This document shows positions 6,065-11,320 of a stretch of DNA of 12,669 bases, one piece after another. The notes beneath the pieces were generated by a model. That model saw nothing but the letters and a program-made list of their open reading frames with translations, searched no databases and was not told where the DNA came from. The stretch spans positions 1 to 12,669 of the forward strand of contig JAEDNF010000021.1 in the NCBI GenBank assembly GCA_016302655.1, in the 5' to 3' direction. Each line of letters opens with the position of its first letter. Position 1 is the stretch's first letter. The DNA is from Oscillospiraceae bacterium (lineage in GTDB: Bacteria > Bacillota > Clostridia > Oscillospirales > Ruminococcaceae). Both the position numbers and the translations under genes were made by a program.

Positions 6065-6080
6065 TGTTCCACATGGAACA
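6065..6080. promoter_or_regulatory. parS: parS-like partition site upstream of mnmG
   Basis: The 16-mer TGTTCCACATGGAACA differs at one position (A for G, position 9) from the fully palindromic parS form TGTTCCACGTGGAACA, and at two from the 16-mer established in B. subtilis, TGTTCCACGTGAAACA. Its 7-bp arms are perfect and the central two bases are CA instead of CG. It lies between the gyrA hairpin and the mnmG start, in intergenic DNA. parS sites are loading points for Spo0J (ParB) clamps and cluster near the origin, which fits this locus and the parAB genes downstream. Whether the changed central base is tolerated is unknown. Confidence 0.7.
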
Positions 6081-8683: not shown

Positions 8684-8721
8684 TTCCGTCGTAAAACAGA
8701 AATTTACGGCGGAATTTTTTT
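8684..8721 (+). terminator. Intrinsic terminator after rsmG
   Basis: A 12-bp stem pairs ttccgtcgtaaa (8684-8695) with tttacggcggaa (8703-8714), with one G-U pair, around a 7-base loop. It is followed directly by seven T (8715-8721). This is a strong rho-independent terminator, 20 bases after the rsmG stop, and separates mnmG-rsmG from noc. Confidence 0.9.
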
Positions 8722-8772: not shown

Positions 8773-9570
8773 ATGGGATTGTTCATAAAGGATAAACAGA
8801 CAGCAGAAAGAGAAATAATAAAGATACTTGTAAGTGATGTTGAGCTAAACCCAAATCAGCCGAGAAAGCATTTTGATAGTGCAGAGCTTATAGAGCTTGC
8901 TATGAGTATAAAAGAAAACGGACTTATGCAGCCTCTCAGCGTCAGAGTAAACGAGAGCGGAAGATATGAACTGATAGCAGGAGAGAGAAGACTCAGGGCG
9001 GCAAAAATAGCAGGAATAGAAAAAATAGAAGCGGTAATATGCAATACTTCGGTAGAAGAATCGGCAGTGTTGGCTATTATTGAGAACATACAACGAAGTG
9101 ATTTGAACTGTATCGAAGAAGCGCTGGCAATAGAAAAGCTGATAAGCTATTACGGATATACGCAGGAACAGCTTGCAAAGAAGCTCGGTAAGGCACAGAG
9201 TACGATTGCAAACAAGCTTCGTATACTGAAGTTAACGGATAACCTTAAAAAGAAGGTTATTGAATACGGACTGTGCGAAAGGCAGATAAGATGTCTTTTG
9301 AAACTGCCCGAAGAAAAGAGGGAAAGGGCGGCAGAGCATATATATAAGTACAATCTTAATGTCGGTAGCACGGAAAGATATATAGAAACGCAGATTTCGG
9401 GTAATAAGAAACCGGCAAAGAAAATCTGGACATTCAAGAACAAGCGGCTGTATATTAATAATATAAACAGGACGCTTGATACAATGAAAAAATCGGGGAT
9501 AGAATTTATATCGGAAAAGAGAGAAGAGAACGGATATCTCGAATATATAATAAGAATACCGCACGATTAA
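8773..9570 (+). CDS. noc: Nucleoid occlusion protein Noc (ParB family)
   Basis: ParB-family CTP-dependent DNA clamp. In B. subtilis Noc binds NBS sites and the membrane and keeps FtsZ from dividing over unsegregated chromosomes. The CTP-binding signature GERRLRAA is at 70-77 and ENIQRSDL at 104-111, followed by the helix-turn-helix TQEQLAKKLGKAQSTIANKL (130-149). The positions reported to separate Noc from ParB specificity read Q142, K148, K153 and R170, the Noc set (ParB: R, T, A, G). A C-terminal dimerisation domain follows. The N-terminus before the ParB domain is very short (MGLFIKDKQT), leaving only a small amphipathic stretch compared with the membrane-targeting helix of B. subtilis Noc. 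At 265 residues it is slightly shorter than usual. GGGAGG at 8760-8765 sits 7 bases ahead of ATG. It is a single-gene unit between two terminators. Confidence 0.9.
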   Translation: MGLFIKDKQTAEREIIKILVSDVELNPNQPRKHFDSAELIELAMSIKENGLMQPLSVRVNESGRYELIAGERRLRAAKIAGIEKIEAVICNTSVEESAVLAIIENIQRSDLNCIEEALAIEKLISYYGYTQEQLAKKLGKAQSTIANKLRILKLTDNLKKKVIEYGLCERQIRCLLKLPEEKRERAAEHIYKYNLNVGSTERYIETQISGNKKPAKKIWTFKNKRLYINNINRTLDTMKKSGIEFISEKREENGYLEYIIRIPHD

Positions 9571-9588
9571 GCGTTCATAGTAAAGTAA

Positions 9589-9633
9589 GTTCATGATTTG
9601 TTCTACGTGGAACAAATCATGGACGCTTTTTTT
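9589..9633 (+). terminator. Terminator of noc whose stem contains a parS-like site
   Basis: Two 18-base arms (9589-9606 and 9607-9624) are complementary at 16 positions; both exceptions are T opposite G, so the RNA hairpin would be paired along its length by G-U wobbles apart from the few bases needed to turn. GC and then seven T (9627-9633) follow, as in an intrinsic terminator. It starts 18 bases after the noc stop and precedes the parA promoter. The centre of the stem is the parS-like 16-mer listed separately. Confidence 0.85.
9599..9614. promoter_or_regulatory. parS: parS-like partition site between noc and parA
   Basis: The 16-mer TGTTCTACGTGGAACA differs by one base (T for C, position 6) from the palindromic parS form TGTTCCACGTGGAACA and by two from the B. 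subtilis 16-mer. The central ACGTGG core is intact. It is the likely binding site for the Spo0J encoded 0.9 kb downstream, and sits inside the noc terminator stem about 30 bases upstream of the parA -35 region. parS sites near parAB are common across bacteria. Confidence 0.8.
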
Positions 9634-9643
9634 ATAAAAAGGC

Positions 9644-9672
9644 TTTATTTTTGCAGAATAGTGTGCTATAAT
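9644..9672 (+). promoter_or_regulatory. Extended -10 promoter of parA-parB(-serS)
   Basis: A perfect TATAAT (9667-9672) is preceded by TGC (9664-9666), an extended -10 element. The -35 region at 17 bases spacing is weak (TTTATT, 9644-9649), as is usual for extended -10 promoters. Transcription should start near 9679, about 20 bases before the parA start codon. It lies directly after the noc terminator and the parS-like site. Confidence 0.75.
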
Positions 9673-9690: not shown

Positions 9691-9696
9691 AGGAGG
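9691..9696 (+). promoter_or_regulatory. Ribosome binding site that fixes the parA start
   Basis: AGGAGG lies 4 bases before the ATG at 9701. An in-frame ATG at 9671 overlaps the -10 box TATAAT and lies upstream of the likely transcription start, so it cannot be used from this promoter. 9701 is therefore the start. Confidence 0.85.
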
Positions 9697-9700
9697 AAAT

Positions 9701-10471
9701 ATGGGAGTAATAATTTCTGTTGTAAATCAGAAAGGCGGCGTCGGAAAGACAACTTCCGCCGTTAATATCTGTGCGGCACTCGGTGCAAAAGGCAAAAAAG
9801 TGCTTTTAGTGGATTTCGATCCGCAGGGCAATGCTACTTCCGGATACGGAATCTCAAAGAAAAACCTTGAGATAACCTCTTATGATGTTGTTATGTCAAA
9901 TGTCAGACCGCAGGAAGCTGTAATCGAGACTAATTTCAAAAATGTAAGCATTATTCCTTCAACAGCAGAGCTCGCAGAGGCAGAAATACATCTGCTTCAG
10001 GTAGAGCAGAGAAATCATCAGCTGAGAAAAGCGCTTATTCAGCTGAAAGACGATTATGACATTATCGTTATTGACTGCCTTCCTTCGCTCGGCGTGCTTG
10101 CCGTAAACGCTCTTATTGCAAGCGATAAGTTTATTGTTCCGATGCAGTGTGAGCATTACAGCCTTGAAGGATTGGCACAGCTTTTGTCTACGGTTAAAAA
10201 GGTTAAGAAAACATCAAATAAAAATCTCACACTTATGGGTATTGTGTTTACTATGCTCGATAAACGACTGCTCCAGTCAAATGAGATAATGAGAGATATA
10301 AAACGCAATTTTCCTCCGTCATCTATTTTCAATACCGTCATTCCGAGAAATGTAAGAATTTCGGAGGCTCCCAGTCACGGAATGCCGGTAATATATTATG
10401 ATAAAAATTCAAAAGGCGCAGAAAGCTATATGAAGCTCGGCGCCGAGATAATAAAAAAACTTGATAATTAA
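9701..10471 (+). CDS. soj: Chromosome partitioning ATPase ParA/Soj
   Basis: ParA-type ATPase that binds the nucleoid as an ATP dimer, is stimulated to hydrolyse by Spo0J, and in B. subtilis also controls DnaA. Counting from M at 9701, the deviant Walker A motif is KGGVGKTT (11-18) with signature K11 and K16, the Walker A' is DFDPQGNAT (38-46), and Walker B is IIVIDCLPSLG (121-131) with D125. The usual DCPPSLG has become DCLPSLG. NVRISEAPSHG (217-227) is the conserved C-terminal signature. The length of 256 residues matches the family (about 253); a start 30 bases earlier would add MYRVMFVGGN, which homologues lack and which overlaps the promoter. The stop codon merges with the ribosome site of parB, indicating translational coupling. 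Confidence 0.95.
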   Translation: MGVIISVVNQKGGVGKTTSAVNICAALGAKGKKVLLVDFDPQGNATSGYGISKKNLEITSYDVVMSNVRPQEAVIETNFKNVSIIPSTAELAEAEIHLLQVEQRNHQLRKALIQLKDDYDIIVIDCLPSLGVLAVNALIASDKFIVPMQCEHYSLEGLAQLLSTVKKVKKTSNKNLTLMGIVFTMLDKRLLQSNEIMRDIKRNFPPSSIFNTVIPRNVRISEAPSHGMPVIYYDKNSKGAESYMKLGAEIIKKLDN

Positions 10472-10480
10472 GGAGGGTGT

Positions 10481-11320
10481 ATGGCAAAAAGAGTCTTAAA
10501 TCAGAAATTCGACAGTATATTTGATGATAACAGCTTTGACGAGGATGAAGGAATAACCACTCTCAAGCTCACAGATATCGAGCCGAATAAGTCACAGCCG
10601 AGAAAAAATTTCGACATCGAAGCGCTTAATACACTGGCGGACTCAATAAGGCAGAACGGCATAATACAGCCGCTTCTTGTTCGTTCAATGCCCGACGGTA
10701 CTTATCAGATAGTAGCAGGCGAACGCAGATGGCGTGCGGCAAAAATGGCAGGTCTTACCGAAGTTCCCGTATTTATTAAGGAGCTGTCGGATATTCAGGC
10801 ACAGCAGATCGCTCTTATAGAAAATCTCCAGCGTGAAAATCTGAACCCTATTGAAGAAGCTAACGGCTATAAAGAGCTTATGGACAGATTCGGTATGACT
10901 CAGGAAGATGTCGCAAGAGTTGTAGGCAAGGCAAGGTCCTCTGTTGCAAATTCTCTGCGGCTGCTCAGCCTTCCGCCGATAATCGCCGAGATGGTCTCAA
11001 ATAACGAGCTTTCGGCAGGTCACTGCAAGGTTCTGCTCGGCGTAAAAGATAACAAGGATATGGTCGAGCTTGCTCATCGTGCCGCCGGAAAAGATGTCTC
11101 CGTGCGTGAAATGGAACGAATGGTAAAATCGCTTAACAAGCCCGAGAAGCCCGAAAAGAAAAAAGAAACCTTCTACGTCGAGGCAGAAATCAGTCTTTCA
11201 AAGGCTCTTGAGACTAATGTAAGCATAATACCGGGCAAAAAGAAGAACACAATACAGATAGAATTCTATAACGATGAAGATTTAACCGATATAATCAATC
11301 GGCTTGCAAACAATAAATAA
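10481..11320 (+). CDS. spo0J: Chromosome partitioning protein ParB/Spo0J
   Basis: ParB CTPase clamp that loads at parS, spreads along DNA, stimulates Soj and recruits SMC to the origin. The N-terminal ParA-stimulating peptide is basic but atypical (MAKRVLNQKFDSIF; relatives usually show LGKGLxxLF). The CTP-binding box AGERRWRAA is at 79-87 and ENLQRENLNPIEEA at 114-127. The helix-turn-helix is TQEDVARVVGKARSSVANSL (140-159). At the four Noc/ParB specificity positions it has R152, S158, S163 and G180, close to the ParB set R-T-A-G and unlike the Noc protein upstream. A basic linker (PEKPEKKK, 221-228) leads to the C-terminal dimer domain. Its length of 279 is normal. AGGAGG (10471-10476) overlaps the parA stop and lies 4 bases before ATG. 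Confidence 0.95.
   Translation: MAKRVLNQKFDSIFDDNSFDEDEGITTLKLTDIEPNKSQPRKNFDIEALNTLADSIRQNGIIQPLLVRSMPDGTYQIVAGERRWRAAKMAGLTEVPVFIKELSDIQAQQIALIENLQRENLNPIEEANGYKELMDRFGMTQEDVARVVGKARSSVANSLRLLSLPPIIAEMVSNNELSAGHCKVLLGVKDNKDMVELAHRAAGKDVSVREMERMVKSLNKPEKPEKKKETFYVEAEISLSKALETNVSIIPGKKKNTIQIEFYNDEDLTDIINRLANNK

Follow-up and report, generated by a model that had tools for sequence, protein, structure and literature searches.

The window, by which we mean the whole 12,669-nucleotide stretch analyzed, carries gyrB, two small ORFs, gyrA, mnmG, rsmG, a noc-like gene, parA, parB and serS, in that order and all on the forward strand. Domain and profile searches assigned mnmG, rsmG, parA and parB, and we presume the identity of gyrB, gyrA and serS from their translations. 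The noc and parA genes are separated by 130 bases, and reading of the sequence located within this spacer a palindrome with the form of an RNA hairpin. The features to which we refer are as follows.

6065-6080, no strand: second parS-like palindrome, TGTTCCACATGGAACA, in the gyrA-mnmG spacer before mnmG and outside any terminator-like hairpin
8773-9570, + strand: noc-like ParB paralogue, the gene 5′ of the hairpin (TIGR04285, nearest solved relatives, specificity residues)
9571-9578, + strand: GCGTTCAT, a second GTTCAT; its pairing with ATGGACGC at 9619-9626 could give the stem a different base (sequence)
9589-9624, + strand: hairpin stem with 18-base arms and two T opposite G (sequence, terminator scan, fold)
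9599-9614, no strand: parS core, TGTTCTACGTGGAACA (pattern match; parS at this place in 26/26 loci)
9627-9633, + strand: terminator T tract (sequence, terminator scan)
9644-9672, + strand: putative parA promoter, with a weak -35 TTTATT and an extended -10, TGCTATAAT, at 9664-9672 (by eye)
9701-10471, + strand: parA (soj), with ParA/MinD-type ATPase domains
10481-11320, + strand: parB (spo0J), whose product is the expected ligand of the core (ParB_N and HTH_ParB)

The first-pass annotation had described a palindrome with 18-base arms followed by GC and seven T, and direct reading of 9589-9633 confirmed it: the arm GTTCATGATTTGTTCTAC (9589-9606) lies opposite the arm GTGGAACAAATCATGGAC (9607-9624), and on their 3′ side come GC at 9625-9626 and seven T at 9627-9633. 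Pairing between the arms is Watson-Crick at 16 of 18 positions, and the remaining two, T9591/G9622 and T9604/G9609, are both T opposite G, as had also been stated. In RNA form a four-base loop is closed by 16 pairs, of which only five are G-C, so that the stem is A-U rich. The 61 bases from 9580 to 9640 fold with an energy of -23.1 kcal/mol versus -6.7 (sd 2.2) for shuffles (z -7.4; none of 200 shuffles was as low), and the hairpin is the longest stem in the window's terminator scan, a scan that over the whole window was not enriched (11 sites versus 9.0 in shuffles). It begins 18 bases past the noc stop codon and has the T tract behind it, which is the arrangement of an intrinsic terminator. 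A search of the window against Rfam gave no hit at the gathering threshold. A GTTCAT-like repeat resembling GCGTTCAT is also present in the noc-parA spacers of the related genomes G033 and G002.

The consensus of chromosomal parS in ParABS (Soj-Spo0J) systems is TGTTNCACGTGAAACA (excerpts of PMC7022226). The core of our palindrome, TGTTCTACGTGGAACA, is one mismatch from TGTTCCACGTGGAACA and three from TGTTTCACGTGAAACA, in agreement with that consensus, and with up to three mismatches allowed there are four parS matches in the window (two sites, each on both strands) versus 0.05 in shuffles. The other of these sites, at 6065-6080, lies about 12 bases past an imperfect hairpin that may end gyrA. 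In the one-contig relative G002 exact-pattern parS occurs exactly twice, at 11.9 and 15.4 kb, corresponding by spacing to the two sites of the window, and looser matches in that genome show no excess (14 versus 39 for the reversed control). Across 71 genomes of the genus the degenerate parS pattern was found in 60 and its reversed form in one. The noc-like protein was matched in 68 of the 71 (E 1e-20 or better), in some through parB only. From 65 loci (the window included and the duplicate L064 removed) we took the 26 in which parA lies within 3 kb downstream of noc; several of the other 39 end too early to show parA. Each of the 26 contains at least one parS with no more than two mismatches, located between noc and parA except in G064 (L121), where the 3′-terminal part of the noc reading frame contains it and a separate terminator lies downstream. 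Because all 26 noc-parA loci carry a parS there, the core at 9599-9614 is very probably parS and is predicted to be bound by ParB; the earlier description of it as a parS-like Spo0J site is thus supported.

Which of the two ParB-family proteins should bind it? The noc-like protein scored 254.6 bits against NCBIfam TIGR04285, under the cut-off of 315. Of its solved relatives, those nearest in sequence are Noc proteins, and the four positions that shift the binding preference of ParB to the Noc site (PMC7383237, in excerpt), as we placed them on the alignment, are occupied by Q, K, K and R. The nearest solved relatives of the parB product are ParB/Spo0J proteins, and it has R and G at two parS-contacting positions, likewise placed by us on the alignment. 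Taking the Noc site to be ATTTCCCGGGAAAT, we counted 17, 19 and 14 matches with up to two mismatches in G001, G002 and G033, versus 2, 7 and 4 for its reversed form; in the window no match to it rose above chance. On account of the contact residues of both proteins, their solved relatives and the excess of Noc-site-like words in three related genomes, the 16-mer should be a ParB/Spo0J site rather than a Noc site. Words similar to those of the putative parA promoter, CTTTATTTTT and TATAAT, are held by related spacers; the promoter scan of the window did not list this candidate. By eye, an AGGAGG at 9691 precedes the parA start.

All 26 noc-parA spacers were scanned for hairpins with a T tract. 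Five have parS within a terminator and no other terminator (those of the window, G033, G002, G054 and G052), 17 have only a separate terminator, four have neither and none has both. In G052 the hairpin scan favoured pairing between its two parS copies, and the single-parS terminator was found by the flank-pairing analysis. The hypergeometric chance of such exclusion, calculated by hand and ignoring relatedness, is 126/65780 = 0.002. The 17 separate terminators include four weak ones (-8.7 to -9.6 kcal/mol), and if the count is restricted to those at -12 kcal/mol or better (13/21) the chance goes from 0.002 to 0.02, relatedness again being ignored. On a tree of the noc-like proteins the fused state occupies 6 of 27 rows and needs three changes; a single clade (95/90) unites the window with G001, G033 and G002, and the other two, G052 and G054, stand apart, G052 being a long branch of unsure placement. 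G001, the nearest genome compared, is labelled fused on the tree and is absent from the 26, its T tract lying beyond the contig end; the palindrome is cut by the end of that contig (G001:C69, L128), perhaps because the inverted repeat disturbed assembly. Fusion of the G033 type is also present in L005, a Ruminiclostridium sp. RGIG9130 MAG contig, and neither the spacing nor the order of parS and terminator is constant among relatives.

As far as these sequences tell, parS is conserved in the sampled spacers, a terminator is usual there, and fusion of the two comes and goes. This pattern and the exclusion in 26 spacers make the strongest case for regarding the hairpin as the probable noc terminator, and they render probable the earlier claim that the hairpin ends noc. 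Loss of the palindrome or T tract from relatives in which noc and parA stay adjacent had been named as evidence that would speak against such a dual element: parS was never lost, although in 21 of the 26 it lies outside a terminator.

Fusions of this kind recur beyond the genus. A parS followed by T7 within 6-20 bases was detected in 31 of 391 class genomes, in 26 of 396 of the family (with a more degenerate pattern) and in 11 of 274 of the phylum, counts that are uncorrected for relatedness; parS alone occurs in 305 of the 391 class genomes, and a scrambled palindrome of equal composition followed by T7 (one scramble only) in none. Flank pairing was better than in 99% of shuffles (p<0.01) for 28 of 77 parS site-orientations with T6 or more nearby, most of which came from loci chosen for T7. 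Among sites unselected for a T tract, 6 of 49 in the class and 1 of 35 in the genus passed, the class sample being 30 loci, taken in output order, of the 305 genomes with a match, several of them from one genus, and its sites numbering 49 or 48 depending on duplicate removal (T-tract versus arm-length analysis). Most of 29 fused rows border relatives of noc, rsmG, mnmG, parA, parB or gyrB, as judged by similarity to the window proteins; L168 and L180 have none of those neighbours within the examined stretch. For 36 fused hairpins, co-directional genes have the T tract on the terminating side in 18 and on the other side in 8, and some of the latter are two-way hairpins. At L203 and L195 the parS-centred hairpin is flanked on each side by A and T tracts, so that it could act as a terminator in either direction. 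Among the open-access papers listed, no title or abstract opening describes a parS inside a terminator.

The arms themselves proved to have a wider distribution than the T tract. Class sites without a T tract have at least five consecutive flank pairs in 14 of 38 cases (flank-swapped mean 1.7, maximum 6), genus sites without one have long arms in 2 of 66, and 3 of 17 sites at nine further class loci are extended. Intergenic class sites have long arms in 18 of 42 cases, a survey in which two L243 sites were counted as coding and are actually between noc and parA relatives. At L004-L048, mostly from other phyla, long arms were found at 1 of 48 sites (20 of the 48 intergenic). The longest run outside the core is 18 pairs, at L228, which has a T tract, and the longest without a T tract is 16, at L240; in the class loci L225-L254 and L265-L273 parS is often the centre of long perfect palindromes, with as many as 18 pairs flanking the 16-mer. 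From lineage to lineage the arms change in sequence and stay paired.

Covariation between the arms was followed in two sets of seven genomes. In set 1, from one genus, the parS core is invariant and, of ten flanking pairs, six have substitutions in both partners, with a covariation of 0.419 versus at most 0.157 when partners are slid; this genus is mostly without a T tract, only G821 passing the T-tract rule, in the direction opposite to the genes. In set 2, from one other family, covariation is 0.586 versus at most 0.386 when slid, and seven pairs changed on both sides, a count equalled by one slid version; we took the sites of this set to be orthologous on the strength of their gyrB-parA position, and their arms are rich in A+T. 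The first-pass annotation had proposed, as a check, to see whether arms change with pairing kept and the core fixed. Both sets, from other families, behave in this way, but they mostly lack a strong T tract, and in the genus to which the window belongs the centre of the core is variable as well. Such covariation is a pattern that RNA pairing, DNA symmetry and templated mutation would fit alike. Since sites of the class sample so often have long arms and lack a T tract, termination cannot be the only reason for such arms. With these arms covarying in a mostly T-less genus as well, we rejected the proposal that arms exist solely for termination.

Within the genus, 14 of 152 sides carry a GTTC half-parS word 10-12 bases before the core (after shuffling, mean 1.25 and maximum 5; relatedness ignored), among them arms of the window, G033, G002 and G054. 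The word lies about one helical turn before the core, at 9588-9598 in the window and also in spacers L115, L124-L126, L150 and L151.

One part of the earlier interpretation did not hold, namely that selection for both functions would leave wobble-preserving changes. In 28 elements chosen by a strand-symmetric selection, one site of which was entered in both directions, arms have 7 G·T versus 5 A·C mismatches and cores 2 versus 0, no significant excess, and the core variant TGTTCTACGTGGAACA is found in both orientations in non-fused spacers. This test is a weak one because several of the mismatches fall outside the stem; wobble preservation was set aside as unsupported. The suggestion that a ParB clamp loaded here could affect RNA polymerase is weaker too, published in vitro results being contrary to steric blocking (PMC10681803).

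We consider it likely, judging from sequence comparisons, that the element is a chromosomal parS that has been co-opted, more than once, to form the stem of an intrinsic terminator for noc. In its DNA form the 16-bp core would load ParB/Spo0J near parAB; in the transcript, six core pairs and ten flanking pairs would make up a hairpin, and this together with the U tract would end noc. Termination at this point, just ahead of the putative parA promoter, would insulate parAB. With parS retained in the spacer and a terminator usually present there, arms that extend the fixed palindrome could replace the separate terminator, as may have happened repeatedly; such a takeover is feasible because the fixed palindrome already gives a short stem. 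At the sequence level the support consists of the anatomy, parS conservation, mutual exclusion in 26 spacers and recurrence in other families. Against it must be set the A-U-rich stem, the four weak terminators among 17 that bring the exclusion chance to 0.02, the class-wide long arms without T tracts, and the 8 of 36 fused hairpins that face against the genes.

Both halves of the element have familiar counterparts. It is like the parS of ParABS (Soj-Spo0J) systems in being a 16-bp palindrome of known form, beside parAB and in few copies per chromosome, and unlike them in lying within a longer palindrome that has the look of a terminator, the published descriptions consulted treating parS as DNA only. 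It is like an intrinsic (Rho-independent) terminator in having a hairpin right after a stop codon and then a T tract; it differs from the usual one in that a protein-binding site fixes the upper stem and loop and in its A-U-rich stem. Our best reading, repeated co-option of parS as a terminator, resembles in logic the Neisseria DNA uptake sequences found in terminators, where too a DNA recognition sequence doubles as a stem, although there two copies of a non-palindromic word pair and here the site is a single palindromic centromere site (PMC2397512, in excerpt).

Could the element have arisen, or be maintained, in some other way? That it is an ordinary terminator resembling parS by chance is scarcely credible: terminators are inverted repeats and the window-wide scan is unenriched, as this would have it, but parS is in 26 of 26 spacers, fused or not, and the scrambled palindrome with T7 (a single control) is in 0 of 391 genomes, and we rejected it. 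It is possible, if doubtful, that the arms were made by mutation, DNA hairpins nucleated by the fixed parS leading to template switching by which one flank is copied to the opposite side, so that arms are by-products of which some become terminators. Template switching in replication has been proposed as the origin of RNA hairpins and could likewise yield perfect arms and paired changes, although the hairpins it yields are not tied to a fixed binding site, unlike the parS palindrome (PMC8794818, in excerpt). Long T-less arms at 14 of 38 class sites versus a swapped mean of 1.7, and arms that differ between lineages yet stay paired, are in its favour, whereas in the window's genus only 2 of 66 T-less sites are extended, and LexA-like palindromes (five distinct sites in five related-class genomes) are unextended, with runs of 0-2, these being far too few to decide. 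Template switching is partly compatible with co-option of parS as a terminator stem, for which it would supply the origin.

Alternatively, the extended palindrome may be a DNA element whose half-parS words or symmetry help ParB to load, with the T tract there by coincidence. ParB binding to half-parS has been reported in other bacteria (PMC7022226, in excerpt), and both the GTTC half-sites on 14 of 152 sides and the existence of palindromes without T tracts accord with this idea, but the half-site count ignores relatedness, arms in other families (e.g., L211, L195 and L168) share no half-site word, and the absence of a separate terminator from fused spacers is left unexplained; we regard it as unlikely. 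Very unlikely, in our estimation, is a regulated switch in which ParB at parS alters noc termination or parA initiation and partition-complex assembly thereby feeds back on noc and parAB. The end of parS is about 30 bases before the putative parA -35, and genes adjacent to parS3 and parS4 of P. aeruginosa are repressed by ParB bound there (excerpts of PMC7022226). However, relatives differ in how far apart parS and the terminator lie and in which of them comes first, and published in vitro data argue against steric blocking of RNA polymerase, B. subtilis ParB clusters having formed no roadblock to it in single-molecule experiments (PMC10681803, in excerpt).

A more interesting question is “Why does parS sit in long palindromes here even without a T tract?” Centromere-like sites are usually treated as DNA only. 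We would speculate, with considerable reservation, that in many Clostridia the working centromere is a long hairpin-forming palindrome whose arms stay compensatorily paired while drifting, and that a hairpin or cruciform, as RNA at gene ends or as DNA, couples ParB loading to transcription beside parAB. If parS is regularly a terminator in Clostridia, its sequence would be under two constraints, RNA polymerase would have to meet the ParB loading site each time the upstream gene is transcribed, and maps of parS drawn from the 16-mer alone would miss much of the element. The recurrent fusions would then be natural replicates in which to study ParB loading alongside transcription and the seeding of hairpins by template switching.

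Two minor observations concern the surroundings of the element. A second strong terminator-like hairpin with seven T follows rsmG, at 8684-8714 of the window, and in L082, L084, L109, L115 and L123-L126 two parS copies lie 38-40 bases apart in the noc-parA spacer.
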